Shown here one piece after another: positions 36,446 to 63,250 of a DNA stretch of 63,250 nucleotides. Where the stretch lies: contig NZ_JANFNH010000043.1 of the NCBI RefSeq assembly GCF_024436055.1, positions 1 through 63,250 on the forward strand, written 5' to 3'. The position numbers and the translations under genes were made by a program. This stretch comes from Streptantibioticus rubrisoli (GTDB lineage: Bacteria > Actinomycetota > Actinomycetes > Streptomycetales > Streptomycetaceae). The notes beneath the pieces are model-generated. The model saw only the letters and a program-made list of their open reading frames with translations. It made no database searches and had not been told where the DNA came from. Every line of letters starts with the position of its first letter. Positions within the stretch are counted from its first letter, which is position 1.

Positions 36446-36952
36446 CGCGCGTCCGCGTTTCAGGGGGCACCGATGTCCACGGCGGTGGTGCCCCCAGCGC
36501 CGCCGCAAGATCCGGATCGGGGCGACGTTCTCGCCCCGTCCGGTCGCTGGAGCGCCCCGTCAGTTCCTGACCTCTCTGGTAGCAGCCTGCGTGAAGATGC
36601 CCGCAGCGTGGCGGACGGCAGAAGGGTGCACCGCCCAAGCGTGTCACGTGACTACTCAGCGCGGCGGACCGCTGCGGATCGTCACCCGCTGCCTCCGCGC
36701 CCTCGCCCGCGCTGTACCGCAACGTCGCCGCTCCGCCGCGCAGGCGCGCCCGGCCCGTGCCCACCGGCCCCCGCAAGCCTCCCCCTCCGGATGGATCATC
36801 CGGTCGCCACCCGGTGCTTGCTGGCCGGAAACCGACCGTTGGGCTCGATCTGGTAACAGGTTCCCAACCCCCCTTTACCTGGCATCTACGCGCGTTAAGC
36901 TCCCGTTCGACCAGCGCCGGACGGGGCGCTATCTGGATGAAGGGGACCCCTC
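36446..36952. promoter_or_regulatory. 507-bp leader region of the nucleoside uptake genes
   Basis: No convincing gene. The right end (36830-36950) resembles a core-genome promoter leader: it contains the palindrome copy at 36886-36897 about 55 nt before the bmp start, and an AAGGGG ribosome binding site. The left part is likely the junction with the accessory island. Confidence 0.5.
36886..36897. promoter_or_regulatory. Palindromic operator candidate, bmp copy
   Basis: CTACGCGCGTTA, matching the palindrome CTACGCGCGTAG at 10 of 12 positions, in the leader of the nucleoside-binding lipoprotein gene. One of five copies in nucleoside-salvage leaders. Confidence 0.65.
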
Positions 36953-38005
36953 GTGCGCCGGGTAACCACAACAATCGCCGCCGCGGGCATAGCCGCGGCC
37001 CTCGCTGTGAGCGCCACCGCGTGTGGTGCCAGTTCCACGTCCTCCGGTTCGAGCGGCTCCAGCTCGGCCAAGGGCGACATGAAGGTCGGCATCGCCTACG
37101 ACGTGGGCGGTCGCGGTGACCACTCGTTCAACGACTCCGCCGCGCGTGGCCTGGACCAGGCCACCAAGGAGTTCGGCGGCACGCCGAAGGAGCTCACCGC
37201 CAAGACCACGGACACCGAGCCGGACCGTGAGCAGAACCTCTCCAACCTCGCCAGCGCCGGTTACAACCCGGTCATCGCGGTTGGCTTCGCCTACGCGAAC
37301 GCGGTCAAGGCGGTCTCGGCGAAGTTCCCGAAGACCAACTTCGGCATCGTGGACTCCGTGGTGCCGGCCAGCAACGTCGACAGCATGACCTTCGCCTCGC
37401 CGGAGAGCTCCTACCTCGCGGGTGTCGCGGCGGCGCTGAAGTCCAAGAGCGGCCAGATCGGCTTCATCGGCGGTGTGGACAACCAGCTCATCAAGGGCTT
37501 CCAGGCGGGCTTCGAGCAGGGTGTCAAGGACACCAAGCCCAGCGACAAGGTCACCACGCAGTACCTGACCACCGGCTCCGACCTGTCCGGCTTCAGCAGC
37601 CCTGACCTGGGCAAGAGCGCGGCCAGCGGCATGCTGTCCAAGGGCATCGACGTGATCTACACGGCGGCCGGCAGCTCCGGTTCCGGTGCGATCGAGGCCG
37701 TGCACGGCCAGAAGGGCGCCTGGGCGATCGGTGTCGACTCCGACCAGTACCAGGACCCGGGCCTGGCCCAGTACAAGGACTCGATCCTGACCTCCGCGGT
37801 CAAGAACGTGAACGTCGCGGTCTACAACCTGATCAAGAGCGTGCACGACGGCAAGCCGCTGACGGGCAACAACACCTACGGTCTGAACAACGGTGGTGTC
37901 AGCCTGGCCACCAGCGGTGGCTTCATCAGTGACATCCAGTCGCAGCTCGACGCGGCCAAGCAGAAGATCGTGAGCGGTCAGATCAAGGTCAAGTCCACTC
38001 CCTGA
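36953..38005 (+). CDS. BMP family nucleoside-binding lipoprotein
   Basis: Substrate-binding lipoprotein of 350 residues (PnrA/BmpA family) for a nucleoside ABC importer. The signal peptide ends in VSATAC, placing the lipid on C24, and a Ser/Gly linker follows. KVGIAYDVGGRGDHSFNDSA is the family ligand-pocket opening. Start GTG after AAGGGG. It is separated from the ATPase gene by a hairpin at 38033-38076 and a palindrome at 38143. Confidence 0.93.
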   Translation: MRRVTTTIAAAGIAAALAVSATACGASSTSSGSSGSSSAKGDMKVGIAYDVGGRGDHSFNDSAARGLDQATKEFGGTPKELTAKTTDTEPDREQNLSNLASAGYNPVIAVGFAYANAVKAVSAKFPKTNFGIVDSVVPASNVDSMTFASPESSYLAGVAAALKSKSGQIGFIGGVDNQLIKGFQAGFEQGVKDTKPSDKVTTQYLTTGSDLSGFSSPDLGKSAASGMLSKGIDVIYTAAGSSGSGAIEAVHGQKGAWAIGVDSDQYQDPGLAQYKDSILTSAVKNVNVAVYNLIKSVHDGKPLTGNNTYGLNNGGVSLATSGGFISDIQSQLDAAKQKIVSGQIKVKSTP

Positions 38006-38032
38006 CCCGCAGATCGCTGAACGGCACGGCGT

Positions 38033-38076
38033 ACGGGGCCCGGTGGCGGAGGCAGTACTTCTCCGCCGGGCCCCGT
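38033..38076 (+). terminator. Hairpin after bmp (partial terminator/attenuator)
   Basis: Imperfect GC-rich stem (38033-38050 with 38062-38076, 3-nt bulge). It could end most transcripts after bmp, keeping the binding protein more abundant than the transporter subunits. Confidence 0.6.
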
Positions 38077-38142: not shown

Positions 38143-38154
38143 CTACGCGCGTAG
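38143..38154. promoter_or_regulatory. Palindromic operator candidate, ABC operon copy
   Basis: Perfect CTACGCGCGTAG 64 nt before the apparent ATPase start. It implies a second regulated promoter inside the bmp-ABC gap. Confidence 0.7.
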
Positions 38155-38217
38155 AAAGCAAGTTGCGCGGTACGTTCGCCCCCTCGCCCCACTCCTTCGC
38201 CCCGAGGAGAGTGCGCC

Positions 38218-39786
38218 ATCAACGCGTCAGCCCCTCCCCCCGCAGTCCAACTCAAGGGAATCACCAAGCGGTTCCCCGGAGTCGTCGCCAACCACGACAT
38301 CGACATCACCGTCGCCCGTGGCACCGTGCACGCCCTGGTGGGCGAGAACGGCGCCGGAAAGTCGACCCTGATGAAGATCCTCTACGGCATGCAGAAGCCG
38401 GACGAGGGCACCATCACGATCGACGGCGAGCAGGTGACGTTCAACCACCCCGGCGATGCCATCGCCCGGGGCGTCGGCATGGTGCACCAGCACTTCATGC
38501 TCGCCGACAACCTCACCGTGCTGGAAAACGTCGTGCTCGGCAGCGAGAAACTGCACGGCATCGGCGGCAAGGCACGCGCCAAGATCCTTGAGATATCCGA
38601 CAGTTACGGCCTGGGCGTACGCCCCGACGTACTCGTCGAGGACCTCGGCGTCGCCGACCGGCAGCGCGTGGAGATCCTCAAGGTCCTCTACCGCGGCGCC
38701 CGTACGCTGATCCTGGACGAGCCGACCGCGGTCCTGGTCCCGCAGGAGGTCGAGGCGCTCTTCGACAACCTGCGCGGACTGAAGGCCGAGGGCCTGACCG
38801 TCATCTTCATCTCGCACAAGCTGGGCGAGGTGCTGTCGGTGGCCGACGAGATCACCGTCATCCGCCGTGGCACCACGGTCGGTTGCGCCGACCCGAAGAC
38901 GACCACCTCCAAGCAGCTCGCCGAGCTGATGGTCGGCAGCGAACTGCCGTCCCCCGAGACCCGCGAGTCCACCGTCACGGACATCCCGCTGCTGACCGTC
39001 GAGGGGCTGCGGCTGACCGCCCCGGACGCCGACGGCATCGAGCGCACCGTGCTGGACGACATCGCCTTCACCATCCACAAGGGCGAGGTCCTCGGCCTCG
39101 CGGGCGTCGAGGGCAACGGCCAGGCCGAACTGGTCGAGGCCATCATGGGCATGCGCGACCCCGACGCCGGTGTGATCACCCTCGACGGCGCCGACATCTC
39201 GCACGCCCCCACCCGGCGGCGCCGGGAGAGCGGCATCGGCTACGTCCCCGAGGACCGCCACCGGCACGGCCTGCTGCTGGAGGCCCCGCTGTGGGAGAAC
39301 CGCATCCTCGGCCACGTCACCGAGAAGCCCAACAGCAAGGGCGCGCTGCTCGACCCCAACGCGGCCCGCAAGGACACCGAGCGGATCGTCGCCGAGTACG
39401 ACGTGCGCACCCCCGGCATCGACGTCACCGCGGCCTCGCTGTCCGGCGGCAACCAGCAGAAGCTGATCGTCGGCCGGGAGATGAGCCACCACCCCAAGCT
39501 GCTCATCGCCGCCCACCCCACCCGCGGTGTGGACGTCGGCGCGCAGTCGCAGATCTGGGACCAGATCCGCGAGGCACGCCGCGAGGGCCTGGCCGTGCTG
39601 CTGATCTCCGCCGACCTGGACGAGCTGATCGGCCTGTCCGACACCCTGCGGGTGATGTACCGCGGCCGGCTGGTCGCGGACGCCGACCCCGCCACGATCA
39701 CCCCCGAGGAGCTGGGCTCCGCCATGACCGGCGCGGCCTCCGGCCACCTTGAGCACTCCACCGCCGCTGGGGGAGAGGACGAATGA
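38218..39786 (+). CDS. Nucleoside ABC transporter ATPase (two ABC domains), apparent ATC start
   Basis: Duplicated ATPase of the sugar/nucleoside family (about 522 residues). The first Walker A is GENGAGKST at about residues 42-50; the second half keeps LSGGNQQKL and the family PTRGVDVG motif. The first standard start in this frame is GTG at 38326, which would remove the first strand LKGITKRFPGVVANHDIDITV. An ATC at 38218 sits 7 nt after GAGGAGA and restores a normal N-terminus, so I place the start there. It overlaps the next permease gene (ATGA). Confidence 0.85.
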   Translation: MNASAPPPAVQLKGITKRFPGVVANHDIDITVARGTVHALVGENGAGKSTLMKILYGMQKPDEGTITIDGEQVTFNHPGDAIARGVGMVHQHFMLADNLTVLENVVLGSEKLHGIGGKARAKILEISDSYGLGVRPDVLVEDLGVADRQRVEILKVLYRGARTLILDEPTAVLVPQEVEALFDNLRGLKAEGLTVIFISHKLGEVLSVADEITVIRRGTTVGCADPKTTTSKQLAELMVGSELPSPETRESTVTDIPLLTVEGLRLTAPDADGIERTVLDDIAFTIHKGEVLGLAGVEGNGQAELVEAIMGMRDPDAGVITLDGADISHAPTRRRRESGIGYVPEDRHRHGLLLEAPLWENRILGHVTEKPNSKGALLDPNAARKDTERIVAEYDVRTPGIDVTAASLSGGNQQKLIVGREMSHHPKLLIAAHPTRGVDVGAQSQIWDQIREARREGLAVLLISADLDELIGLSDTLRVMYRGRLVADADPATITPEELGSAMTGAASGHLEHSTAAGGEDE

Positions 39787-40913
39787 AGAAGTTCGCGAAG
39801 ATAGACAAGGAGCGGCTGCTGCTCGGCCTGGCCGCTCCGGTGCTCGCCCTGGTGGCGGCGTTCCTCGTCACCAGCCTGGTGCTGCTCGCCACCGGCAAGC
39901 AGCCGTTCAACGCCTTCCAGATCATGGGCAGTTACGGCGTCAAGAGCGACAGCCAGGTCTACATCCTGAACAAGGCGACCACGTACTACCTGGCCGGTCT
40001 CGCGGTGGCCGTCGGCTTCCGGATGAACCTGTTCAACATCGGTGTGGACGGCCAGTACCGGCTCGCGGCGTTCGTCGCCGCGGTGGTCGGCGGCATGGTG
40101 AGCCTGCCCAGCTTCCTGGAACTGCCGCTGATCATCATCGTCGCGATGCTGGTCGGCGCGGCCTGGGCGGGCCTGGCCGGTCTGCTCAAGGTGGGCCGGG
40201 GCGTCAGCGAGGTCATCGCCACGATCATGCTGAACTCGATCGCCACCGCGATCATCGGCTATCTGCTGCAGCCCGGTCGGCTGGCGCACCTGGACGCCAA
40301 CACCAACAGCGTGCACACCACGGTGCTGCCGAAGTCCGGCTGGTTCTTCACCTTCACCACCAACCCGGCGGCCGGTCCCATCCAGGGCTTCATCGTCATC
40401 GCGGCGCTGGCCGGTGTCGGCTACTGGTTCGTGCTCAACCGCACCCGGTTCGGCTTCGACCTGCGCACCGTCGGCCAGTCCGAGTCCGCCGCGCAGGCGT
40501 CCGGTGTGAACGTCAAGCGCATGGTGGTCACCAGCATGCTGATCTCCGGCGCGGTCGCCGGTCTGGTGGGCATGCCCACCCTGCTCAACGAGTCCCACCA
40601 GTACGCCACCGACTTCCCCACCGGAATCGGTTTCACCGGTATCGCCATCGCCCTGCTCGGCCGCAACCACCCGGCGGGCATCGCGCTCGGCGCGCTGCTG
40701 TGGGCGTTCCTCGACCGCACCTCCAACTGGCTTGAGTTCAACGGCTACGACAAGGAGATCGTCGGCGTCATGCAGGGCGTCATCGTGCTCTGCGTGGTCA
40801 TCGCCTACGAACTCGTCCGCCGCTACGGCCTCGGCCGCCAGCAGCGCCGGGTGGGCGAGGAACTCGCCGCCGCGGCGCGCAAGAACACCGTGAAGGAAGA
40901 GGTGACGGCATGA
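39783..40913 (+). CDS. Nucleoside ABC transporter permease
   Basis: Membrane subunit of 376 residues with about eight to ten hydrophobic helices and the family segments FRMNLFNIGVDGQYRL and SEVIATIMLNSIA. Coupled on both sides by ATGA overlaps with the ATPase and the second permease genes. With the lipoprotein it forms the nucleoside importer. Confidence 0.92.
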   Translation: MKKFAKIDKERLLLGLAAPVLALVAAFLVTSLVLLATGKQPFNAFQIMGSYGVKSDSQVYILNKATTYYLAGLAVAVGFRMNLFNIGVDGQYRLAAFVAAVVGGMVSLPSFLELPLIIIVAMLVGAAWAGLAGLLKVGRGVSEVIATIMLNSIATAIIGYLLQPGRLAHLDANTNSVHTTVLPKSGWFFTFTTNPAAGPIQGFIVIAALAGVGYWFVLNRTRFGFDLRTVGQSESAAQASGVNVKRMVVTSMLISGAVAGLVGMPTLLNESHQYATDFPTGIGFTGIAIALLGRNHPAGIALGALLWAFLDRTSNWLEFNGYDKEIVGVMQGVIVLCVVIAYELVRRYGLGRQQRRVGEELAAAARKNTVKEEVTA

Positions 40914-42193
40914 GCGCCACCACGACCGCCGTCAAGGCCACCGCGCCCAAGGCTCCGCAGGCCAAGGGCACAGGGCGCCTCTCCTATCCCGTCATGCTGG
41001 TGCTGCTCGCGGGCGTGCTGCTCGCGGTCTGCGCGGTACGGGCGATCACCGGGGCGCAGGACGTGACGTCCTCCGGCCAGATCAGCGGCATGCTGACGAT
41101 GGCGGTGCCGATCGGCCTCGCCGGGCTCGCCGGTCTGTGGTCGGAGCGGGCCGGTGTGGTCAACATCGGCCTTGAGGGCATGATGATCCTCGGCACCTTC
41201 TTCGGGGCCTGGATCGGCTGGCAGACCAACCCGTGGCTCGGCCTGGTCGCCGGAATCCTCGGCGGCATGCTCGGCGGCCTGCTGCACGCGGTCGCCACCG
41301 TCACCTTCGGCGTGGACCACATCGTCTCCGGTGTGGCGATCACCCTGCTCGCCCAGGGCATCACCCAGTACCTGGCCAAGCGCTGGTTCAACACCGGCCA
41401 CGCCGCGACGCTCGGCGGCAACCCCAAGCAGTCACCGCCGATCAAGCCGGTGCAGTCGATCACCGTGCCGGGGCTGTCCGACTGGCTGCTGGGCATCGAG
41501 CACCACCACTGGTTCCTGGTCTCCGACGTCGCGGGCATCCTCGGCGGCCTGGTCACCGGGCTGTCCTACTTCACCGTGCTCGCCGTGCTGCTGTTCGCCG
41601 CCACGTTCTACGTGCTGTGGCGCACCGCCTTCGGCCTGCGGCTGCGCTCGTGCGGTGAGGCGCCGATCGCCGCCGAGTCGCTCGGTGTGAACGTGTACTT
41701 CTACAAGTACATGGCGGTCGTGCTCTCCGGTGGACTCGCCGGTTTCGGTGGCGCGTTCCTGGCCATGGTCCCGTCGCACATCTACAACGAGGGCCAGACC
41801 GGCGGGCGCGGTTACATCGGTCTCGCCGCGATGATCTTCGGCAACTGGCGGCCCGGCGGGCTGGCGATGGGCGCGGGCCTGTTCGGCTACACCGACAGCC
41901 TGGCGCTGCGCAGCGGTGGCCCGGCGGCGCACGCGCTGCTGTTGCTGCTGGTGATCCTGCTCGCCCTTCTGGCGGGTTGGAAGTTCTACCGCAAGAGCTA
42001 CCGACAGGGCGTGCTGAGCGCGGTTTCCGCGGCACTGCTGCTGTTGTGGTTCGTGATGACGGACACCATCCCGAACGAATTCGTCTCCGCCACCCCGTAC
42101 GTGGCCACGCTGCTGGTGCTGGCGCTGTCCGCGCAACGGCTGCGGATGCCGAAGGCGAACGGCAAGCCCTACCGGAAGGGCCAGGGCAAGTGA
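40910..42193 (+). CDS. Nucleoside ABC transporter permease
   Basis: Second membrane subunit (427 residues). It has AGLWSERAGVVNIGLEGMMI, typical of this family, and about ten hydrophobic helices. The stop overlaps the start of the cytidine deaminase gene (GTGA), linking import directly to metabolism. Confidence 0.92.
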   Translation: MSATTTAVKATAPKAPQAKGTGRLSYPVMLVLLAGVLLAVCAVRAITGAQDVTSSGQISGMLTMAVPIGLAGLAGLWSERAGVVNIGLEGMMILGTFFGAWIGWQTNPWLGLVAGILGGMLGGLLHAVATVTFGVDHIVSGVAITLLAQGITQYLAKRWFNTGHAATLGGNPKQSPPIKPVQSITVPGLSDWLLGIEHHHWFLVSDVAGILGGLVTGLSYFTVLAVLLFAATFYVLWRTAFGLRLRSCGEAPIAAESLGVNVYFYKYMAVVLSGGLAGFGGAFLAMVPSHIYNEGQTGGRGYIGLAAMIFGNWRPGGLAMGAGLFGYTDSLALRSGGPAAHALLLLLVILLALLAGWKFYRKSYRQGVLSAVSAALLLLWFVMTDTIPNEFVSATPYVATLLVLALSAQRLRMPKANGKPYRKGQGK

Positions 42194-42588
42194 CCGACCA
42201 GCCCATCGACTGGGAGGGTCTGCGCGCGGCGGCCCGGGACGTGACGACCCGGGCCTACGCGCCGTACTCCGGCTTCCCGGTCGGCGCCGCCGCGCTGGTC
42301 GACGACGGGCGGACCGTCGTCGGCTGCAACGTGGAGAACGCGGCCTACGGGGTCGCGCTGTGCGCCGAGTGCGGACTGGTCTCCGCGCTGCACGCCTCCG
42401 GTGGCGGTCGGCTGACGGCGTTCACCTGCTGCGACGGGCAGGGCCGGGTGCTGATGCCGTGCGGGCGCTGCCGCCAACTGCTGTGGGAGAACGGCGGTCC
42501 CGAGCTGCTGGTCGACACCGCGCGCGGCGTCCGGCCGATGCGCGAGTTGCTTCCGGACGCCTTCGGCGCCGAGGATCTGGACCGCTAG
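42190..42588 (+). CDS. cdd: Cytidine deaminase
   Basis: Tetrameric-type cytidine deaminase of 132 residues. Zinc ligands C58 (with catalytic E60 in CAEC), C91 and C94 (PCGRC) are all present, plus the substrate-binding NVENA. It converts cytidine and deoxycytidine to uridine and deoxyuridine. GTG start coupled to the permease gene; 31 bp precede deoA. Confidence 0.95.
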   Translation: MTDQPIDWEGLRAAARDVTTRAYAPYSGFPVGAAALVDDGRTVVGCNVENAAYGVALCAECGLVSALHASGGGRLTAFTCCDGQGRVLMPCGRCRQLLWENGGPELLVDTARGVRPMRELLPDAFGAEDLDR

Positions 42589-42619
42589 GGCAAAACGACG
42601 TAAGGAACGCGAACCCCTC

Positions 42620-43897
42620 ATGGACGTCATCTCCGTCATCCGTACCAAGCGCGATCGTGGTCGTCTCAGCGACGAGCAGATCGACTGGGTGATCGACGCG
42701 TACACCAAGGGCGAGGTCGCCGACGAGCAGATGTCCGCGCTCGCCATGGCGATCCTGCTCAACGGTATGGACCGGGCCGAGATCGCCCGCTGGACCGCCG
42801 CGATGATCGCCAGCGGTGAGCGGATGGACTTCTCGTCGCTGCCCCGGCCGACCGCCGACAAGCACTCGACGGGCGGTGTCGGCGACAAGATCACACTGCC
42901 GCTGGCCCCGCTGGTCGCCGCGTGCGGCGCCGCCGTACCGCAGCTGTCCGGCCGGGGCCTCGGCCACACCGGCGGCACGCTGGACAAGCTGGAGTCCATC
43001 CCCGGCTGGCGGGCGCTGCTGTCCAACGACGAGATGATGGGCGTGCTGCGCGATGTCGGCGCGGTCATCTGCGCGGCCGGTGACGGGCTGGCGCCCGCCG
43101 ACAAGAAGCTGTACGCGCTGCGCGATGTGACCGGCACGGTGGAGGCGATTCCGCTGATCGCCTCCTCCATCATGTCCAAGAAGATCGCGGAGGGCACCGG
43201 TTCGCTGGTGCTGGATGTGAAGGTCGGCTCCGGCGCGTTCATGAAGAACCGCGAGGACGCGGCCGAACTCGCCCGCACCATGGTCGGGTTGGGCACGGAC
43301 CACGGCGTCAGGACCGTCGCCCTGCTGACCGACATGTCCACGCCGCTGGGCCTGACGGCCGGTAACGCGCTCGAAGTCCGGGAGTCCGTCGAGGTGTTGG
43401 CGGGCGGCGGCCCGGCCGACGTGGTCGAGCTGACGCTGGCGCTGGCCCGCGAGATGCTCGACGCGGCGGGCCTGAAGGACGCCGACCCGGCGAAGGCGCT
43501 GCGCGACGGTTCCGCGATGGACCACTGGCGCCGCATGATCGCCGCGCAGGGCGGTGACCCGGACGCGGCGTTGCCGGTGGCGCGTGAGCGGCACGTGGTG
43601 ACCGCTTCCGCTTCCGGTGTGCTCACCGCGCTGGACGCCTACGCGGTGGGCGTCGCCGCCTGGCGCCTCGGCGCGGGCCGGGCCCGCAAGGAGGACCCGG
43701 TGCAGGCGGGCGCGGGCATCGAGATGCATGCCAAGCCGGGTGACTCCGTCACGGCTGGCCAGCCCCTGCTGACCCTGCACACGGATACTCCGGAGCGCTT
43801 CGAGTACGCGCTGGCCGCGCTGGAGGGCGGGGTGACGATCTCGCCGTCCGGCACGGCGTACGAGCCGCAGCCGATCGTGCTGGAACGTATCGCCTGA
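42620..43897 (+). CDS. deoA: Thymidine/pyrimidine nucleoside phosphorylase
   Basis: Enzyme of 425 residues that cleaves thymidine and deoxyuridine with phosphate. The family signature SGRGLGHTGGTLDKLES (around residue 112) and KHSTGGVGDK are intact. Full length with the C-terminal domain. Last gene of the pyrimidine part of the operon, before a terminator. Its product, deoxyribose-1-phosphate, feeds the mutase and deoC. Confidence 0.95.
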   Translation: MDVISVIRTKRDRGRLSDEQIDWVIDAYTKGEVADEQMSALAMAILLNGMDRAEIARWTAAMIASGERMDFSSLPRPTADKHSTGGVGDKITLPLAPLVAACGAAVPQLSGRGLGHTGGTLDKLESIPGWRALLSNDEMMGVLRDVGAVICAAGDGLAPADKKLYALRDVTGTVEAIPLIASSIMSKKIAEGTGSLVLDVKVGSGAFMKNREDAAELARTMVGLGTDHGVRTVALLTDMSTPLGLTAGNALEVRESVEVLAGGGPADVVELTLALAREMLDAAGLKDADPAKALRDGSAMDHWRRMIAAQGGDPDAALPVARERHVVTASASGVLTALDAYAVGVAAWRLGAGRARKEDPVQAGAGIEMHAKPGDSVTAGQPLLTLHTDTPERFEYALAALEGGVTISPSGTAYEPQPIVLERIA

Positions 43898-44588: not shown

Positions 44589-45837
44589 CCGCCGCCGCCC
44601 GTCGCGCCGCCCGCGTCCCGTACAGCGTGACCCCCGCCGCAGCCGCCATCACGGCCAATCCCACCGCCGTCGCCGCGGGCCAGCCGCCGTCATGGTAGGC
44701 GGCGGCCCCAACCGTGCCGCCCACGCTGTTGCCGATGTAATACGCCGTCAGGTAAAGGGCGCTGGCCTGGGCGCGGCCCGAGGTCGCCGTGTGGGAGACC
44801 GCGCCGGAGGCGACCGAGTGGCCGGTGAAGAAGCCCGCTGTGATCAGCACAAGTCCGGCCAGTACAGCGGCGATTGAGTCGGCGAGGCTCAGCAGCAGGC
44901 CCGTCGCCACCGCCACGATCCCGCAGTACAGCGCACCGCGCCGACCCAGCCGGGCCACCAGCTTTCCGGCCGCCGCCGAGCTCGCCGTACCCACCAGGTA
45001 GACCAGGAAGATCGAGCCGACCAGACCGTCCGGCAGGTCGAACGGCGCCGCCGTCAGGCGGTACCCCAGCACCGTGTAGACCGAGCCGAAGACCGCCATG
45101 AACAGCATGCCCAGCAGGTACAGGCGCAGCAGCAGCGGATTGCGCACGTGCCCGGTGAACGTGGCCAGCAGCGCGCGCGGGCTGATCGGGGACGGCGTGA
45201 AGTTCCGCGCCTTCGGCGCGAGCAGGATGAACGCCACCGCGCAGCCAAGCGACAGCACGCCCAGCACACCGAGCGCCACCCGCCAGCCCGCGAACTGGGC
45301 GACTAAACCGGCGATCACCCGGGAGGACATGCCGCCCAGGCTGTTGCCCGCGACGTACAGGCCGATCGCGGAGGCGATCGCCTTCTTGGAGACCTCCTCG
45401 GCCAGATACGCCATGGCGGTCGCCGGAAGCCCGGCGAGCGCGACGCCCTGCAGCGTCCGCAGCGCCACCAGCACCGTCAGGTTCGGCGAGAACGGCACCG
45501 CCAGCCCGATCAGCGCGGCGCTGACCACCGCGACCGCCATCACCGGCGTGCGGCCGTACCGCTCGGACAGCGCGCTGACCGGGATCAGTGCGATCGCCAG
45601 CCCGGCCGTGGTCATCGACACCGTCAGGCTGGCCTGCGCCGGGCTCACAGCGAGGTCCGTGGAGATCGCGGGCAGCAGTCCCTGGGTCGAGTACAGCAGC
45701 AGGAAGGTGGCCGTCCCGGCGGCGAACAGGGCCAGGATCGCCCGCCGGTAGGCGGCGCTGCCGGGTAGGAGCTTGGTTTCCGTGGCGGCGTCCGCGGTCG
45801 TGGTACGAGCGGACGCCGGGGTATCGACATCGGGCAT
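44581..45837 (-). CDS. MFS transporter
   Basis: Twelve-helix major facilitator protein of 418 residues (ATG 45837), close to the drug/sugar efflux type: ALSERYGRTPVMAVAV is the loop-2 motif. Divergent from a LysR gene with a 62-bp gap, the classic arrangement in which the regulator controls the exporter. Substrate unknown. Confidence 0.9.
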   Translation of the reverse strand: MPDVDTPASARTTTADAATETKLLPGSAAYRRAILALFAAGTATFLLLYSTQGLLPAISTDLAVSPAQASLTVSMTTAGLAIALIPVSALSERYGRTPVMAVAVVSAALIGLAVPFSPNLTVLVALRTLQGVALAGLPATAMAYLAEEVSKKAIASAIGLYVAGNSLGGMSSRVIAGLVAQFAGWRVALGVLGVLSLGCAVAFILLAPKARNFTPSPISPRALLATFTGHVRNPLLLRLYLLGMLFMAVFGSVYTVLGYRLTAAPFDLPDGLVGSIFLVYLVGTASSAAAGKLVARLGRRGALYCGIVAVATGLLLSLADSIAAVLAGLVLITAGFFTGHSVASGAVSHTATSGRAQASALYLTAYYIGNSVGGTVGAAAYHDGGWPAATAVGLAVMAAAAGVTLYGTRAARRAAAVS

Positions 45838-45899
45838 ACCCCGAACGTACGACCGGCATATTGATGCGTCCAATGCACGAAATAGAAATAATCGTTCCC

Positions 45900-46895
45900 A
45901 TGCAGCATGAGCACAGGTCAGAGCGGGGTGCGTCATCCCTCCGCAAGGAAAACGACATCGCGGCGACAAATATCCGTCAAGGTAAGGGAGATGGCCGCGA
46001 CTGGTCCGCCGTGCTCGCCCCGCGGCTCGCCCAGTTCGCCGCCGTCGCCCGCCACGAGCACATCACCCGCGCCGCGCAGGAACTCGGCGTACCGCAGTCC
46101 AGCCTCAGCCGGGCCATCGTGCGCCTTGAGGAGGACCTCGGCGTCACCCTGCTCGCCCGGCACGGCCGCACCGTCTCGCTGACCCCGGCCGGGCGGATGT
46201 TCCTCGGCTCGGTGGAGCGCGCCCTCGACGGCGTGGAGCGCGCCGCGGAGACGGTACGCGCCGACGCCGACCCGTCGACCGGCCGGGTGGCCTTCGGCTT
46301 CCTGCACACGCTCGGCCCGGAGACGGTGCCGGGGCTGCTGCGGGAGTTCCGCGCGGACCATCCGGGGGTGCGCTTCCAACTCGTGCAGAACTACGGCGAG
46401 GCGATGCTGGAGCGGCTGCGCGCGGGGGAGTTGGACCTGTGCCTGACCGCTCCACTGCCGGACGCGCCGGACCTGGTGGTGCGGCGGCTGGACGAGCAGC
46501 GGCTGCGGCTCGTCGTTCCGGAGGGGCACCGGCTCGCCGGTCGCAGGCGGGTACGGCTGGCGGAGACGGCCGAGGAGTGGTTCGTCACGCTGGAGGCGGG
46601 GTACGGGCTGCGCCGCATCACCGACCGGCTGTGCGCGGAGGCGGGGTTCACCCCGAAGATCGCCTTCGAGGGCGAGGAGGCGGAGACGCTGCGCGGCCTG
46701 GTGGCCGCGGGGCTGGGCGTTGCGCTCCTGCCTCCGCCGCCGGTACCTCGGCCCGGCGTGGTGGAACTGACCGTTTCCGGCCCCCGCGCGGTACGCGAGA
46801 TCGGGGTGGCCTGGTTGGACGGTCATCCCGACACGGCACCCGTCGCGGCGTTCAAGCGGTTTCTACTGGGGCGGCGGGGGCGGTTGTTGGCGTAG
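45900..46895 (+). CDS. LysR-type transcriptional regulator
   Basis: Protein of 331 residues with a short extension before the winged helix-turn-helix (LAQFAAVARHEHITRAAQELGVPQSSLSRAIVRLEEDLGVTLLARHGRTVSLTPAG) and a substrate-binding co-inducer domain (about 130-320). The ATG at 45900 is the first plausible start; the 30-residue N-terminal extension is unusual and the real start may be later. Probably regulates the divergent MFS gene. Confidence 0.88.
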   Translation: MQHEHRSERGASSLRKENDIAATNIRQGKGDGRDWSAVLAPRLAQFAAVARHEHITRAAQELGVPQSSLSRAIVRLEEDLGVTLLARHGRTVSLTPAGRMFLGSVERALDGVERAAETVRADADPSTGRVAFGFLHTLGPETVPGLLREFRADHPGVRFQLVQNYGEAMLERLRAGELDLCLTAPLPDAPDLVVRRLDEQRLRLVVPEGHRLAGRRRVRLAETAEEWFVTLEAGYGLRRITDRLCAEAGFTPKIAFEGEEAETLRGLVAAGLGVALLPPPPVPRPGVVELTVSGPRAVREIGVAWLDGHPDTAPVAAFKRFLLGRRGRLLA

Positions 46896-48705: not shown

Positions 48706-48717
48706 CTACGCGCGTAG
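48706..48717. promoter_or_regulatory. Palindromic operator candidate, add copy
   Basis: Perfect CTACGCGCGTAG 17 nt before the adenosine deaminase start codon, where a bound protein would block initiation. Confidence 0.7.
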
Positions 48718-48733
48718 GCGCTAGCATCAGCCA

Positions 48734-49954
48734 ATGGAGAAGACAAGCCAGCTCACGAACCAGCTGGAGCAGACCCTCGGAGCCGCCGCGTCCGCGACGC
48801 CGGACCGGATCCGCCGGGCCCCCAAGGTGCTGCTCCACGACCACCTCGACGGTGGTCTGCGTCCCCAGACGATCATCGAACTCGCCGAGGCCATCGGCTA
48901 CGAGAACCTGCCCGAGACCGACCCCGAGCGGCTCGCCGTCTGGTTCCGGGACGCCGCCGACTCGCCCGCCAAGGAGGGCGGCGCCGGTCTGGTGCGCTAC
49001 CTGGAGACGTTCACCCACACCTGCGCCGTGATGCAGACCCGCGACGCGCTGTTCCGGGTGGCCGCCGAGTGCGCCGAGGACCTGGCCGCCGACGGCGTGG
49101 TCTACGCCGAGATCCGCTACGCCCCCGAGCAGCACCTGGAGGCCGGGCTCACCCTTGAGCAGGTCGTGGAGGCGGTCAACGAGGGCTTCCGGGAGGGTGA
49201 GCGCCGCGCTCTGGCCAACGGGCACCGCATCCGCGTCGGCGCCCTGCTCACCGCCATGCGGCACGCCGCCCGCTCGCAGGAGATCGCCGAACTCGCCAAC
49301 CGCTACCGGGACATGGGCGTCGTCGGCTTCGACATCGCGGGCGCCGAGGCGGGCTTCCCGCCCACCCGGCACCTGGACGCCTTCGAGTTCCTCAAGCGGG
49401 AGAACAACCACTTCACCATCCACGCCGGTGAGGCCTTCGGCCTGCCGTCGATCTGGCAGGCGATCCAGTGGTGCGGCGCCGACCGGCTCGGCCACGGCGT
49501 GCGGCTGATCGACGACATCCACGTCTCCCAGGACGGCTCGGTCAAGCTGGGCCGACTCGCCTCGTACGTACGGGACAAGCGGATCCCGCTGGAGATGTGC
49601 CCGACCTCCAACCTGCAGACCGGCGCGGCGGACAGCTACCACGAGCACCCCATCGGCCTGCTGCGGCGGCTGCACTTCCGGGTGACCGTCAACACCGACA
49701 ACCGGTTGATGAGCGGTACGACGCTGAGCGACGAGTTCCAGCACCTGGTGGACGCGTTCGGCTACACGCTCGACGACCTGCTGTGGTTCACCGTCAATGC
49801 GATGAAGTCCGCGTTCATTCCTTTCGATGAACGTCTGGCCATGATCAACGACGTGATCAAGCCCGGCTACGCCGAGTTGAAGGCCGAGTGGCTGTTCCGT
49901 CCGGCGACCGCGCAACCCCCGCTGGCCAGCGGTTCTACCGCCGAGCAGGGCTGA
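48734..49954 (+). CDS. add: Adenosine deaminase
   Basis: Enzyme of 406 residues that converts adenosine and deoxyadenosine to inosine and deoxyinosine. Zinc ligands H35 and H37 (LHDHLDGG), the HAGE catalytic segment, and TVNTDNR near the C-terminus carrying the conserved Asp pair are visible. Somewhat longer than the human enzyme, normal for actinobacteria. A palindrome copy lies 17 nt upstream. Confidence 0.94.
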
Positions 49955-51169: not shown

Positions 51170-51760
51170 TCAGGCCCTGGTGCCCTCGGTCGATCCGGCG
51201 TCCGGCCGGGTGCGCAGCGCGTCGTCACAGCGGTAGCGCAGCGGTGGGACGCCGCGGTCCGGGCCGCCCAGCACCACCGAGCGGTCGGCGGCGCCCGCCG
51301 CGGTCCCGGCGAAGGTGCACACCAACTGGCCCACCGCGTAGGAGGGCAGGTCGTCGGGGTCCTGGTTCAGCCGCAGCGTCTCCGCCGGATCCCCGGGGAA
51401 CGGCCCGTTCACGCTCAGCCCGCCCGGCACCTCGGAGGCGAAGCCGCCCCTCTCCTCGGCCTGGTCGGGCTTGCGCAGCAACTCGGCCAGCAGCGTACGG
51501 GCGGTGGCCAGCCGGTCGGAGTGCCGGTCGGGGACGACGCGCCGCACCGGTGAGACCCGCTGGCTGCACACCAGGTACACGTCCACGGTCACCGTGCCCC
51601 GCGCCGTGCTCGACGCGGTACGCGGCTGGTCGCAGGAGACCCGGGTCGGCGCCGCCCCCGCGTCCACCGGTACCGAGGTGGCGCGGATCCCGCACCCCGC
51701 CGTACCGAGGGCCAGCGCCAGCACAACCCCCGCGCCCAGCAGCCGCCTTGGCGACGTCAA
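51170..51760 (-). CDS. Lipoprotein of the AfsQ locus
   Basis: Lipoprotein of 196 residues. The TTG start at 51760 overlaps the kinase stop (TTGA) and follows GAGGAGGGG. The lipobox is LGTAGC. The mature domain has VDVYLVCSQRVSPVRRV and LVCTFAGTA, resembling the GerM-like domain. The third gene after afsQ1-afsQ2, as in S. coelicolor, so a role in envelope signal sensing is likely. Confidence 0.8.
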   Translation of the reverse strand: MTSPRRLLGAGVVLALALGTAGCGIRATSVPVDAGAAPTRVSCDQPRTASSTARGTVTVDVYLVCSQRVSPVRRVVPDRHSDRLATARTLLAELLRKPDQAEERGGFASEVPGGLSVNGPFPGDPAETLRLNQDPDDLPSYAVGQLVCTFAGTAAGAADRSVVLGGPDRGVPPLRYRCDDALRTRPDAGSTEGTRA

Positions 51761-53511: not shown

Positions 53512-54157
53512 CGCGCACGGTACGGATCAGCTTCGGGGAGGACGGCACGTCCTCGACCTTGGCCCGCAGCCGCTGGACGCACGCGTCCACCAGCCGGGAG
53601 TCACCCAGGTAGTCGTGCTCCCACACCAGCCGCAGCAGTTGCTGCCGGGACAACGCCTGGCCCGGGCGGCGGCTCAGCTCCAGCAGCAGCCGCAGCTCGG
53701 TCGGGGTCAGTTGGAGGTCGTTGCCGTCCTTGGTCACCGTCATCGCCGACCGGTCGATCACGATCGAGCCGAAGGACGCCGAGTCCGTGCTGTCCCGCTC
53801 ACCGCGCCGCAGCACCGCGCGGATCCGGGCGTCGAGCACCCGCGGCTGGATCGGCTTGACCACGTAGTCGTCGGCGCCCGACTCGAGGCCGACCACCACG
53901 TCGATGTCGTCGCTGCGCGCGGTGAGCAGGATGATCGGCAACTGGTCGGTGCGGCGGATCCGACGGCACACCTCGAACCCGTCGATGCCCGGCAGCATCA
54001 CGTCCAGCACGATCAGGTCGGGACGCTGCTCGCGCAGCCGCTCCAGACCCTCCTCGCCGGTCGCGGCGGCCACCACGCGGTGGCCCTGCCGGGACAGGGC
54101 AAGTTCGAGGCCCGTACGGATGGCGTCGTCGTCCTCGATAAGCAACAGGAAGGGCAC
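53480..54157 (-). CDS. afsQ1: AfsQ1 response regulator
   Basis: OmpR-type regulator of 225 residues: receiver with E8/D9, phospho-acceptor D52 and K101, and a winged-helix DNA-binding domain ending VRGVGYRLDPPQ. It recognises GTNAC-N6-GTNAC sites and links nitrogen/envelope signals to antibiotic production in S. coelicolor. The GTG at 54157 gives the same length as the S. coelicolor protein; ATG 54166 is an alternative. It is divergent from sigQ across an AfsQ1 box. Confidence 0.95.
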   Translation of the reverse strand: MPFLLLIEDDDAIRTGLELALSRQGHRVVAAATGEEGLERLREQRPDLIVLDVMLPGIDGFEVCRRIRRTDQLPIILLTARSDDIDVVVGLESGADDYVVKPIQPRVLDARIRAVLRRGERDSTDSASFGSIVIDRSAMTVTKDGNDLQLTPTELRLLLELSRRPGQALSRQQLLRLVWEHDYLGDSRLVDACVQRLRAKVEDVPSSPKLIRTVRGVGYRLDPPQ

Positions 54158-54229
54158 GCAGGCCATTGTGGCGTACCGCGGGGTGTCACCGCGTACACCC
54201 CAGGGGGCGAAGCACCGTCGCGCGGCCCT

Positions 54230-54245
54230 GTGACAGGGCTGTGAC
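54230..54245. promoter_or_regulatory. AfsQ1 binding site
   Basis: GTGAC-AGGGCT-GTGAC, a perfect match to the known AfsQ1 site GTNAC-N6-GTNAC, located 73-88 bp from the afsQ1 start and about 117 bp from the sigQ start. Confidence 0.85.
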
Positions 54246-54361
54246 ACTCGACGGACAGCCTCATGAAAGTGGTCCGCCAGAGTTGTGTGCACCGGCGGGA
54301 AACCTCGCCGGTGACTACCACGAAATCCAGATCTGACCGGTTCCACTCACGGGGGCACGAG

Positions 54362-58666: not shown

Positions 58667-59677
58667 TCAGTCCACCGTCACGTAGTCGGGACCGGAGTAC
58701 CGGCCGGTGCTCAGCTTCTGACGCTGCATCAGCAGGTCGTTCAGCAGGCTGGAGGCGCCGAAGCGGAACCAGTCCGGGGTCAGCCACTGTTCACCGAGGG
58801 TCTCGTTCACCATCACCAGGTACTTGATGGCGTCCTTGGTGGTGCGGATGCCGCCCGCGGGCTTCACGCCGACCTGTACGCCGGTGGCGTCCCGGAAGTC
58901 CCGTACCGCCTCCAGCATCAGCAGGGTGTTCGGCGGGGTGGCGTTGACCGCGACCTTGCCGGTGGAGGTCTTGATGAAGTCGGCGCCCGCGAGCATCGAC
59001 AGCCAGGAGACCCGGCGGATGTTGTCGTACGTCGCCAACTCGCCGTTCTCGAAGATCACCTTCAGGTGCGCGGCGCTGCCGTCCGGGCGGGCGCAGGCCG
59101 CCTTGACCGCCTTGATCTCCTCGAAGACCTGCATGTAGCGGCCGGAGAGGAAGGCGCCGCGGTCGATGACCATGTCGATCTCGTCCGCGCCCGCGGCCAC
59201 CGCGTCGGCGGTGTCCGCCAGCTTCACCGGCAGCGCGGCGCGCCCGGCCGGGAAGGCGGTGGCCACCGACGCCACGTGGATGCCGGAGCCGTCGAGCGCT
59301 TCCTTGGCGGTCTTCACCATGTCCGGGTAGACACAGATCGCGGCGACCTTCGGGGTCGTACGGTCGGTCGGGTCGGGGTTGACGCCCTTGGCGCACAGCG
59401 CCCGGACCTTGCCCGGGGTGTCGGCGCCTTCCAGGGTCGTCAGGTCGATCATCGAGATCGCCAGGTCGATGGCGTAGGCCTTCGCCGTGGTCTTGATCGA
59501 ACGGGTGCCGAGCGTGGCGGCACGGCCTTCGAGGCCGACCGCGTCCACGCCGGGCAACCCGTGCAGGAACCGGCGCAGCGCTGCGTCGGACGCGGTGACG
59601 TCGGCCATCGACGCCAGCCGCTCCGCGGCCTGCGGGCTGTATGCGGGCGTGATGGGCCCAGGGGTCTGCATGGTCAC
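58667..59677 (-). CDS. deoC: Deoxyribose-phosphate aldolase
   Basis: Class I aldolase of 336 residues that splits deoxyribose-5-phosphate into glyceraldehyde-3-phosphate and acetaldehyde. The Schiff-base lysine K236 is in FIKTSTGK, and VKPAGGIR holds the second essential lysine. It is longer than E. coli DeoC because of an N-terminal extension. The GTG start at 59677 (or ATG 59671) is 14-20 nt from the palindrome at 59691. Confidence 0.93.
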   Translation of the reverse strand: MTMQTPGPITPAYSPQAAERLASMADVTASDAALRRFLHGLPGVDAVGLEGRAATLGTRSIKTTAKAYAIDLAISMIDLTTLEGADTPGKVRALCAKGVNPDPTDRTTPKVAAICVYPDMVKTAKEALDGSGIHVASVATAFPAGRAALPVKLADTADAVAAGADEIDMVIDRGAFLSGRYMQVFEEIKAVKAACARPDGSAAHLKVIFENGELATYDNIRRVSWLSMLAGADFIKTSTGKVAVNATPPNTLLMLEAVRDFRDATGVQVGVKPAGGIRTTKDAIKYLVMVNETLGEQWLTPDWFRFGASSLLNDLLMQRQKLSTGRYSGPDYVTVD

Positions 59678-59690: not shown

Positions 59691-59702
59691 CTACGCGCGT
59701 AG
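59691..59702. promoter_or_regulatory. Palindromic operator candidate, deoC copy
   Basis: Perfect CTACGCGCGTAG 14 nt upstream of the deoC start on the minus strand. Confidence 0.7.
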
Positions 59703-60444: not shown

Positions 60445-60472
60445 CCGCCCGCTCGTTCCGGTCAGCCCAAAA

Positions 60473-60512: not shown

Positions 60513-60519
60513 TGCGCCC

Positions 60520-62199
60520 TCAGATACCGGCCGCAGCCGACATGTCCTTCTTCAGCGCCGCCAGCACCTCACTCGCCGCCGCCCGGGCCGAGGGCAACGC
60601 GTCGAGCCCGGCCACCGGGACCACCGCCTCCAGGTAGCACTTCAGCTTCGGCTCGGTGCCGCTCGGTCGGACGATGACCCGCGCCGCGGAGACCGTCCCG
60701 TCGCCCGCGAGGTGGTAACGCAGACCATCGGTGGGCGGCAGCCGGTCGCTGCCCTGGCTCAGGTCCTCCGCCGAGGTGACGGCGAGACCGGCGAGTTCGG
60801 CTGGCGGCTGCTCCCGCAGCCGCCGCATCGCGTCGGCGATCAGCGTCAGATCGGCGACCCGCACCGACAACTGGTCGGTGGCGTGCAGGCCGTGCCGTAC
60901 CGCCAGTTCGTCCAGCAGGTCGTTGAGGGTGCGGCCCTCCGCCTTGAGCCCGGCCGCCAGCTCGGCGACCAGCAGCGCCGCGGTGACGCCGTCCTTGTCC
61001 CGTACGCCCTCGGGGTCGACGCAGTACCCCAGCGCCTCCTCGTACCCGTACCGCAGACCCTGGACCCGGGCGATCCACTTGAAGCCGGTGAGGGTGTCCT
61101 GGTACGGCAGCCCGGCCGCCGCGGCGATCCGCGACAGCAGCGAGGACGACACGATCGAGGCCGCCATCGTGCCCTTCGCGCCCCTGCGCACCAGGTGCGC
61201 GGCGAGCAGTGCGCCCACCTCGTCACCGCGCAGCATCCGCCAGCCGCCCGCCGCGGCGGCGTCCGGTACGGCCACCGCGCAGCGGTCCGCGTCCGGGTCG
61301 TTGGCGATCACGATGTCCGGGCGTTCGGCACGGGCGTGCGCGAACGACAGGTCCATGGCCCCCGGCTCCTCCGGGTTCGGGAAGGCCACGGTCGGGAAGT
61401 CCGGATCCGGCTGCGCCTGCTGCGGCACGACGGCCGGGGCCGGGAAGCCGACCCGGGCGAACGCCGTGGTCAGCACGTCAGCGCCGACGCCGTGCATCGG
61501 CGTGTAGACGACGGAGACATCGCGCGGGCCGCCCTCGGCGACCACGGTCGCGGCGCGGTCCAGGTACGCCTCGACGATCTCGTCGTCCAGCGTCCGCCAG
61601 CCGCCGTCGGCCAGCGGCACCTCGGCCAGGGCGCCGATCGCGGCGATCTCCGCGGCGATCCCGGTGTCCGCGGGCGGCACGATCTGCGAGCCGTCACCGA
61701 GGTAGACCTTGTAACCGTTGTCCCGCGGCGGGTTGTGGCTGGCGGTCACCATCACACCGGCCGCCGCGCCCAACTCCCGGATGGCGAACGCCAGTACCGG
61801 CGTGGGCAGCGGTCGCGGCAGCAGGGCGGCACGCAGTCCGGCACCGGTCACCACGGCCGCGGTGTCCCGTGCGAAGTCGTACGACTTGTGGCGCGCGTCG
61901 TAACCGATCACCACCAGGCCGTCGGTGTGGCCCTGCGCCTTGAGGTAGGCGGCCAGGCCCGCCGCCGCACGGATCACCACGGCGCGGTTCATCCGCATCG
62001 GGCCCGCGCCCAGCTCGCCCCGGAGTCCGGCGGTGCCGAACTGGAGGGTGCCGGAGAAGCGCTCGGCGATCTGCGCCGCCGCCTCCGGCGTACCGCCGTC
62101 GATCAGCGCGGCCAGTTCGGCGCGGGTTTCCGGATCGGGGTCCTCCGCCAGCCAGGCGCGAGCCCGGGTCAGCGTGTCCATTCCCATCTGAGGTCCCAT
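60520..62199 (-). CDS. Phospho-sugar mutase (phosphomannomutase/phosphopentomutase type)
   Basis: Alpha-D-phosphohexomutase superfamily protein of 559 residues: phosphoserine S154 in TASHNPP, the metal loop DPDADR at 301-306, the sugar-binding and RPSGTEPK phosphate loop near the C-terminus. Next to purine phosphorylase and deoC, it may convert ribose/deoxyribose-1-phosphate to the 5-phosphate, replacing the unrelated DeoB (inference). The ATG at 62199 is 22 bp from the purine phosphorylase stop. Confidence 0.9.
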   Translation of the reverse strand: MGPQMGMDTLTRARAWLAEDPDPETRAELAALIDGGTPEAAAQIAERFSGTLQFGTAGLRGELGAGPMRMNRAVVIRAAAGLAAYLKAQGHTDGLVVIGYDARHKSYDFARDTAAVVTGAGLRAALLPRPLPTPVLAFAIRELGAAAGVMVTASHNPPRDNGYKVYLGDGSQIVPPADTGIAAEIAAIGALAEVPLADGGWRTLDDEIVEAYLDRAATVVAEGGPRDVSVVYTPMHGVGADVLTTAFARVGFPAPAVVPQQAQPDPDFPTVAFPNPEEPGAMDLSFAHARAERPDIVIANDPDADRCAVAVPDAAAAGGWRMLRGDEVGALLAAHLVRRGAKGTMAASIVSSSLLSRIAAAAGLPYQDTLTGFKWIARVQGLRYGYEEALGYCVDPEGVRDKDGVTAALLVAELAAGLKAEGRTLNDLLDELAVRHGLHATDQLSVRVADLTLIADAMRRLREQPPAELAGLAVTSAEDLSQGSDRLPPTDGLRYHLAGDGTVSAARVIVRPSGTEPKLKCYLEAVVPVAGLDALPSARAAASEVLAALKKDMSAAAGI

Positions 62200-62221
62200 C
62201 TGCGGCTCCTTGCGGGTGAGA

Positions 62222-63037
62222 TCAGATACGGCCGAGCACCTGGGCGAGGAGGCTGCCCATGCGGGTGGCGGACTCGCGCCCGGCCTCCAGGACCTCTTCG
62301 TGGTTGAGCGGCTCGCCGGTCATGCCCGCGGCGAGGTTGGTCACCAGCGAGATGCCCAGCACCTCGGCGCCCGCCTCACGGGCGGCGATCGCCTCCAGCG
62401 TGGTCGACATACCCACCAGGTCGCCGCCGATCGCACGGACCATGCCGATCTCGGCCGGGGTCTCGTAGTGCGGGCCGGGCAGCTGCACGTAGACGCCCTC
62501 GGTCAGCGTCGAGTCGACCTCCTTGCACAGCGTGCGCAGCCGCGGCGAGTACAGGTCGGTGAGGTCCACGAAGTTGGCGCCCACGATCGGCGAGGTGGCC
62601 GTCATGTTGATGTGGTCGCTGATCAGTACGGCTTCGCCGGGCTTGAACGTGGGGCGCAGACCACCGCAACCGTTGGTCAGCACGACGGTCTTGCAGCCCG
62701 CGGCGACGGCGGTACGCACGCCGTGCACGACGGCGGCCACGCCGCGGCCCTCGTACAGGTGGGTGCGGCCCAGGAAGACCAGGGCGCGCTTCTCGCCGAT
62801 CGTTACGGAACGGATCTTGCCCGCGTGGCCAGCGACGGCCGGGGGCGGGAAGCCGGGAAGTTCTGTGACGGGGAACTCGTGGTCGGCCTCGCCGAGGGCG
62901 TCGGCGGCCGGGACCCAGCCGGATCCCATGACGAGCGCGACGTCATGGGTCTCGGCGCCGGTGAGCTCGCGCAGGCGGGTGGCGGCCTCGTTCGCGGCGG
63001 CGTAGGGGTCGGTGGGGAGATTTGCGGTTGCGTTCAC
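62222..63037 (-). CDS. Purine nucleoside phosphorylase (trimeric type)
   Basis: Enzyme of 271 residues that cleaves inosine and guanosine. Family motifs are [15 protein letters not shown] near residue 37, the phosphate-binding GRTHLYEG segment, [21 protein letters not shown], and [17 protein letters not shown] near 203, all of the trimeric type. Start GTG; a palindrome copy lies 25 nt upstream. Forms an operon with the mutase gene. Confidence 0.94.
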
Positions 63038-63250
63038 GCGGAGAGGGTAGCGCGCGGATGGCTACGCGCGTAGATGCATTTCATCACGTTTCCGCTCACG
63101 CTGGCGTTTGGCGGTTCCCCCAGGGATGCGCTGGCGCTGCCAGGCTGCCCCGCCCGCCCACTCGTTTGGCGTTTCGCCTTTGGTTGCCGGGGCGCAGGGC
63201 CGTGCGGGGGTCGATTGGGGGTGCGCTGCGTGGTTTTTTACCCACCCACC
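63038..63250. promoter_or_regulatory. Upstream region of the purine phosphorylase gene
   Basis: 213 bp up to the window edge. It contains the palindrome at 63062-63073; the rest is G-rich on the plus strand, with a TTTTTT run near the right edge. No gene is visible. Confidence 0.5.
63062..63073. promoter_or_regulatory. Palindromic operator candidate, purine phosphorylase copy
   Basis: Perfect CTACGCGCGTAG 25 nt upstream of the purine phosphorylase start. Confidence 0.7.

Follow-up and report, generated by a model that had tools for sequence, protein, structure and literature searches.

A 12-bp palindrome, CTACGCGCGTAG, recurs in front of genes for nucleoside uptake and breakdown in a 63,250-nucleotide (nt) stretch of Streptantibioticus rubrisoli DNA (contig NZ_JANFNH010000043.1, positions 1 to 63,250; the whole of this stretch is referred to below as the window), which raises the question of what the palindrome controls and which protein reads it. 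Comparison across genomes strongly supports a purine regulon marked by the palindrome throughout the Streptomycetaceae. The palindrome is very probably the operator of a LacI-family repressor of purine metabolism, predicted from sequence comparison to be the protein encoded directly downstream of glnR.

The window contained four exact copies of CTACGCGCGTAG, at 38143, 48706, 59691 and 63062, and a near copy, CTACGCGCGTTA, at 36886, all as the initial annotation had listed them. Among 12-bp perfect palindromes only CTACGCGCGTAG occurred more than twice in the window, and the four copies compare with 0.004 and 0.003 expected from first- and second-order Markov models, respectively; the observation is real and far from chance. 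When up to two mismatches were allowed, eight copies were found against a mean of 4.8, a count reached by 11 of 100 shuffles. As this relaxed count is unremarkable, the signal resides in the exact palindrome. The sole further copy with one mismatch lay at 7347, at the end of a predicted gene, and copies with two mismatches lay at 2154 and 10181. In the whole genome (7,263,112 bases, 103 contigs) the only exact copies were the four of the window, compared with one match for the reversed control; they were not scattered over unrelated genes, all four standing before abcA, add, deoC and pnp. A two-mismatch scan of the same genome was uninformative, giving 257 matches against 603 for the reversed control. 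The relaxed pattern CTAYNCGNRTAG gave seven sites, five of them before purine or nucleoside genes, against 13 for its reversed control. Besides the four of the window, these comprised the purS site, a site preceding an XRE/ATPase gene pair and a site within a coding frame.

The asymmetric copy CTACGCGCGTTA (36886..36897, plus strand) is located between a -35-like TTTACC (36874-36879) and a -10-like TAAGCT (36896-36901), as judged by eye, and overlaps the latter. It lies 55 nt upstream of bmp (36953..38005, plus strand, GTG at 36953), which encodes a PnrA/Bmp-type substrate-binding (nucleoside-binding) lipoprotein (Pfam PF02608, 218 bits). The exact copies are given here without strand. The first (38143..38154) covers the -35 position of the abcA operon, 16 nt upstream of a -10-like TACGTT (38171-38176). 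The operon behind it (38218..43897, plus strand), delimited by open reading frames and family searches and grouped as one operon from context only, comprises genes for an ATP-binding cassette (ABC) ATPase (abcA, 38218/38326-39786), two permeases (39783-40913 and 40910-42193, the second from context only), a cytidine deaminase (within 41977-42588) and a thymidine/pyrimidine phosphorylase (42620-43897), the ATPase, the first permease, the deaminase and the phosphorylase having been assigned by family search. The gap from operator to abcA is 63 nt if translation starts at ATC 38218; GTG 38326, the first common start, is 171 nt away. The add operator (48706..48717) lies 4 nt upstream of a -10-like TAGCAT (48722-48727) and 16 nt before ATG 48734 of the adenosine deaminase gene add (48734..49954, plus strand; NF006847, 624 bits, cut-off 412). 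The deoC operator (59691..59702) lies 1 nt upstream of a -10-like TATGCT (59689-59684) and 13 nt before GTG 59677 of the gene for deoxyribose-phosphate aldolase (58667..59677, minus strand; TIGR00126, 180 bits, cut-off 117). The pnp operator (63062..63073), close to the end of the contig at 63250, lies 12 nt upstream of a -10-like TACCCT (63049-63044) and 24 nt before GTG 63037 of the purine-nucleoside phosphorylase gene (62222..63037, minus strand; TIGR01698, 327 bits, cut-off 303). A phosphoglucomutase/phosphomannomutase-like gene (60520..62199, minus strand; PF02878-PF02880) is probably co-transcribed with pnp in a putative operon.

The palindrome is conserved well beyond this genome. The other two genomes of the genus also carry four copies each at similar spacing, giving four copies per genome in 3/3 genomes. 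In an even draw of Streptomycetaceae covering 16 genera it was found in 297 of 297 genomes, at one to six copies compared with zero to three for the reversed pattern, and in a class-wide draw it was found in 31/31 Streptomycetaceae versus 10/265 others. Nine of these ten outsider genomes have a single copy and one (G367) has three. The initial annotation had tied its proposal to conservation at orthologous leaders, and this was observed; because leader rows overlap (the window and L001, for example), counts are given for distinct leaders. The exact palindrome was present in 27/27 Streptomycetaceae leaders of pnp (31 rows), 25/25 of deoC (28 rows) and 23/26 of abcA, where one further leader had a single mismatch and two (L049, L096) lacked the site. 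Relatives of add found by protein similarity had the exact site in 80/80 loci, usually followed by a TAGAGT-like -10 and an ATG without a leader, and seven add rows that are second paralogs had it within one mismatch in every case. The bmp leader had the identical asymmetric CTACGCGCGTTA in 19/19 distinct Streptomycetaceae leaders (23 rows), its tail forming a -10-like TAAGCT or TTAC-type variants.

The fetched loci held 181 exact sites, of which 165 were at add (92), abcA (25), deoC (24) and pnp (24) and 16 at none of these, a tally biased by overlap between loci and by the retrieval of 80 of them through add. The 16 remaining sites comprised seven from genomes outside the Streptomycetaceae (L139-L145), one at deoC (L159), two at second adenosine deaminases (L147, L161), one at purS (L162), one in the leader of a secreted 5'-nucleotidase gene (L149) and four that are unexplained (L148, L105, L110, L129). 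The L148 site is 17 nt before a HAD-like gene (by eye), and the other three were judged from context to be coding or unrelated.

The initial annotation had described a nucleoside-salvage regulon. That the palindrome marks a regulon is strongly supported by these comparisons; the restriction to salvage is too narrow, because copies also precede purSQ, purN, purK, a second adenosine deaminase gene and a secreted 5'-nucleotidase gene, so that the sequences point to a family-wide purine regulon. The one-mismatch list of the S. rubrisoli genome includes CTACGCGCATAG before purS-purQ and CTACGCGCGTTG before purK. From a search for PurS across 60 genomes of the order, a capped set of 30 loci was compared, 18 from Streptomycetaceae (all 18 of one genus, out of 47 family genomes with a match) and 12 from two other families. 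All 18 Streptomycetaceae leaders had a copy, with one mismatch in 17 and two in one, and the central C|G was always kept, while the 12 others stood at four to five mismatches, meaning that the site is absent there. A pattern search also found the purS site in three other genera (four genomes: L012, L366, L222, L225), and in G058 (L162) the copy before purS is exact. In L219, L221, L227 and L233, from four genomes, an exact copy lies upstream of purN, the PurN frame being confirmed in 4/4 at 75-100% identity. The second adenosine deaminase has a copy within codons 3-7 in four genomes and a one-mismatch copy in a fifth, and the secreted 5'-nucleotidase has an exact copy upstream in G095 and a one-mismatch copy in G200, the two loci in which the gene was found. 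Curated-model scores, from one example each, were 222 bits for PurN, 596 for PurK, 108 for PurS, 331 for PurQ and 574 for the adenosine deaminase.

Which protein reads the palindrome? The initial annotation had found no candidate regulator gene in the window; a LysR-like open reading frame (within 45588-46895) and a response regulator/kinase pair (51757-54346) are in fact present, their families assigned by eye, but nothing links either to the palindrome. The candidate lies outside the window, at G000:C53:2049-3071 of the same genome, directly behind a gene identified as glnR by Pfam GlnR_1st, in a position that matches SCO4158 of Streptomyces coelicolor. It has an N-terminal LacI helix-turn-helix (PF00356, 52 bits, cut-off 27) and a periplasmic-binding-like sensor domain (PF13377, 113 bits; PF00532, 84 bits). 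A survey of LacI genes in three genomes, S. rubrisoli and two small Streptomycetaceae genomes, left only two common to all at high identity. The glnR-linked LacI was found in 17/17 Streptomycetaceae tested at 67-100% identity, with the recognition helix TSTAVVSYV in all. Among six order-mates of other families, two had no match at an E-value of 1e-40 and four had none better than 1e-46; both helices that were read from such order-mates differ from TSTAVVSYV. The operator CTACGC|GCGTAG is palindromic and even in length, and its central C|G is kept in the 18 purS variants and in the sites of a distant family, f15 (where it was part of the scan pattern); CTA...CG...TAG is what the weak sites retain. 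Such a central C|G in an even palindrome is described as the usual signature of LacI-family operators (PMC4052901).

The pairing of helix and operator was followed outside the Streptomycetaceae. The two nearest LacI relatives there (G367, G366) carry the same helix TSTAVVSYV. In G366, lacI and a nucleoside hydrolase-adenosine deaminase operon point away from each other, and the 135 nt between them contain the palindrome TCTAAACGATTAGA. A search of 250 f15 genomes gave 24 LacI homologs in 20 genomes at an E-value of 1e-60. All 14 homologs at 62-100% identity (query included) adjoin nucleoside hydrolase and/or adenosine deaminase genes, and CTANNCGNNTAG precedes the LacI start by 29-101 nt in all 14. 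Three more distant homologs with the same helix carry CTATGCGCTTAG. Six homologs have Glu, Asp or Pro at the first contact position; the Glu/Asp variants L356 and L361-L363 carry the related sites CTACACGTGTTG or CAACACGAGTTG, and no such site was found for the fifth variant of this kind, L360, or for the Pro variant L359. Overall, CTANNCGNNTAG was present in 15 of the 24 150-nt upstream windows versus none in the other 91,045 bases of these loci (Markov expectation 0.02). It was found within 200 nt of 0/31 LacI genes with other helices, a count that omits four rows with an unparsed helix, one of which (L352) has the site. In a maximum-likelihood tree the Streptomycetaceae group (with G367) joins the hydrolase/deaminase group at 99/94 support, and under midpoint rooting the Glu/Asp/Pro group falls outside that joint group. 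Helix and operator are thus paired clade by clade, which supports the LacI protein as the regulator.

Several observations weigh against this assignment. The leader of the Streptomycetaceae lacI gene itself has no site (0/20 rows), so that the link between gene and palindrome comes from comparison rather than from neighbourhood or autoregulation. L354 has the helix TSTAVVSYVL and a hydrolase neighbour and lacks the site. The 14 f15 genes, from six genera, are related and hence do not represent 14 independent events, and position 3 of the half-site differs between the clades, being C in Streptomyces and A in f15. The ligand-contact positions of PurR, which form its nucleobase co-repressor pocket, are only partly kept in the alignment, with Phe and Asp retained and the Arg/Thr stretch unaligned. 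Of the three exact 12-mers in G367, the genome with the best homolog outside the family, only one is near a purine-like operon and none is beside its lacI. These copies were rejected as a transferred regulon, one being in a low-complexity stretch and one in a coding frame. The third precedes a PfkB / QueE-like / IMPDH-like gene set by about 630 nt (L215:6526-10061).

The first candidate for the regulator was a DeoR-family protein whose gene is encoded about 2.3 kb beyond the pnp operator (the distance in G002), behind an lpd-like gene (G000:C80:1697-2656 in the S. rubrisoli genome, on a contig that begins with lpd; L135:13067-14029). Such a protein would sense phosphorylated (deoxy)ribose, as the family name suggests. 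It belongs to the DeoR family by PF08220 and PF00455 and scores below the E. coli DeoR equivalog (NF007961, 74 against a cut-off of 244). Its orthologs, at 83-98% identity in 20/20 Streptomycetaceae of the class draw, are as conserved as the LacI gene, an exact site lies within 4 kb of the gene in the 13 genomes for which both coordinates were listed, and its first 70 residues do not vary among 23 Streptomycetaceae rows, even though overall identity drops to about 80%. This candidate was demoted because its relatives beyond the family have different surroundings and no good match to the motif there. Families f15 and f24 include homologs at 54-70% identity whose helix (SEVTVRRD) is nearly the same; none of the outside loci compared contained add, deoC, pnp, deoA or bmp, five of them lie near ABC-ATPase genes with just 31-34% identity to abcA, and a scan limited to CGCGCG cores gave no copy better than two mismatches. 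An even palindrome whose central C|G persists in the weak purS sites has the geometry of a LacI operator, and the DeoR reading gives no reason for control of purS, purN and purK. Its ownership of the palindrome is considered unlikely, and the gene may instead add a second layer of control. By position, its S. coelicolor counterpart is presumably SCO4920. That gene is a DeoR-family member that appears in a carbon-catabolite list and as the centre of a network module (PMC4848846, PMC3224704).

A regulator of some other family (GntR, TetR, MerR, or a second LacI such as the one linked to hisC) is also quite improbable as the owner of the site. The survey of regulators covered LacI genes only, in three genomes, and the position of the sites in the promoter spacer at add, deoC and bmp would suit MerR-like activators and repressors equally. 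If the owner came from an unrelated family, the clade-specific link in f15 between the TSTAVVSYV helix and CTANNCGNNTAG would be unexpected, and the hisC-linked LacI has a different helix and no such site in its leader. The reading of the palindrome as an RNA element or a conserved promoter hexamer pattern rather than a protein operator is very improbable. The sites abut -10-like elements, so the promoter could account for part of the conservation, but the -10 varies (TAGAGT, TATGCT, TACCCT) while the 12-mer is constant, and the distance from site to -10 ranges from overlap to 16 nt. The add, deoC and pnp transcripts are probably leaderless, and the site, upstream of their predicted starts, would therefore be outside their RNA.

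With the glnR-linked LacI as the preferred regulator, the position of the sites suggests how it might act. Sites at add, deoC and bmp are in the spacer between -35 and -10, touching or overlapping the -10, and those at pnp, abcA and purS are over the -35 position (all by eye). The initial annotation had argued for repression from placement close to start codons; the sites do sit where those of a repressor would, and it is from this core-promoter position that we infer repression, an activator that binds the spacer being possible instead. A repressor dimer would read the half-site CTAC-N-C on each side of the central C|G and would occupy the core promoters of bmp, the nucleoside ABC-cdd-deoA operon, add, deoC and pnp. 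Weaker occupancy, through sites with one or two mismatches, would be expected at purSQ and, in some species, at purN, purK, the second adenosine deaminase gene and the secreted 5'-nucleotidase gene. RNA polymerase would be blocked until purine status changes. Since a single operator serves salvage, uptake and de novo synthesis alike, purine sufficiency, sensed through a nucleobase or nucleotide co-repressor, is modestly favoured as the signal; a nucleoside inducer is plausible and given somewhat less credence.

A number of features beside the regulon were observed. The rare ATC codon (GAGGAGAGTGCGCCATC, window 38200-38230) seems to be the start of the nucleoside ABC ATPase. GTG 38326, the only common in-frame start, is close to the Walker A motif, and the string GGAGAGTGCG(C/T)CATCAA is repeated in many of 28 ABC ATPase relatives, many of which also have in-frame GTGs. 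Directly upstream of bmp, a relaxase gene (PF03432) and a small accessory open reading frame at 34277-35913 appear to be the remains of a mobilisable element. Further exact copies of the 12-mer without a tie to purines are inside predicted genes (L218, L238) or part of another repeat (L220). The L220 repeat (about 1480-1545) consists of three consecutive 16-bp palindromes CACTAC-N4-GTAGTG, which belong to a different operator family and include the 12-mer only by accident; the adjacent gene is presumably CopD-like. Genes for a secreted Ig/CBM-like protein, similar in L229, L232, L234 and L240, have the exact 12-mer at the gene start in all four loci, one of which has it twice, 46 bp apart; these copies, too, have no tie to purines. 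The sequence CTATGCGCGTAG lies between an XRE-type regulator gene and an ATPase-domain gene in two genomes of the genus (L011 and L365, both at 1501), with gene families assigned by eye, and no tie to purines was found at these two loci. Another variant, CTACGTGCGTAG (L006 at 1501; C8:17412 of the S. rubrisoli genome), overlaps the start region of a nitrilase-like gene (beta-ureidopropionase-like by eye), and its centre is unlike that of the operator.

GTP, ppGpp and c-di-GMP draw on purine pools and have a bearing on antibiotic production and sporulation (PMC6627660). We tentatively propose that the glnR-linked LacI is the master purine regulator of the Streptomycetaceae, descended from a local repressor of nucleoside hydrolase/adenosine deaminase genes in other actinobacteria, and that it gained the de novo operons through weakened operators together with its place at the nitrogen locus. 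It would then couple purine status to nitrogen control, nucleotide second messengers and the onset of antibiotic production. With an operator in all 297 sampled Streptomycetaceae and a named regulator gene, the question is directly testable in a laboratory strain.

The candidate is probably a purine regulator that has been overlooked, a LacI-type protein so far uncharacterised. In S. coelicolor, SCO4158 is described as a LacI regulator downstream of glnR and as a possible regulator of glnR itself; the same paper cites a 2012 study on an antibiotic pigment in connection with it, and the available part of its text mentions no purine role (PMC9739823). SCO4158 also appears in lists in two further papers (PMC5839063, PMC4848846). 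XdhR of S. coelicolor, which regulates the purine-salvage operon xdhABC (PMC6627660), is a different protein with different targets, and the main text of that Streptomyces review contains neither LacI nor PurR. Within the literature outside subscription journals and the RegPrecise tables, the texts available gave no regulator of de novo purine synthesis or nucleoside salvage in Streptomyces except XdhR for xdhABC, and the letters of the 12-mer appeared in two papers unrelated by title. AdeR and HpxR are named as local LacI regulators of nucleoside utilisation, and UriR also as a nucleoside regulator, in PMC4052901; part of the present regulon may therefore have been predicted in silico earlier, with the candidate regulator, in its f15 or Streptomyces form, as AdeR or HpxR.

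Of the known systems, the candidate resembles PurR of E. coli, a LacI-family repressor of purine genes across many operons that reads an even palindrome with a central C|G, and it gave a sequence match of about 150 bits to solved PurR chains. Unlike PurR, it scores 180.5 bits against the cut-off of 501 for the equivalog NF007979, its operator has other letters, and its predicted sites are strongest before genes for uptake and breakdown; PMC4052901 reports PurR orthologs from three gamma-proteobacterial orders only. In its predicted LacI-type control of nucleoside uptake and breakdown genes it is like CytR of E. coli and UriR of Corynebacterium, from which its scores set it apart (160.7 against a cut-off of 436 for CytR, NF008269; 105 against 550 for UriR), and it is far below the curated RbsR cut-off too. 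Neither CytR nor UriR is known to control de novo purine genes. One regulator for both de novo purine synthesis and purine uptake is found in Bacillus subtilis PurR, whose protein fold and operator are unrelated to those of the candidate. We infer that the glnR-linked LacI, although not assigned as a PurR ortholog, works like a hybrid of PurR and CytR.

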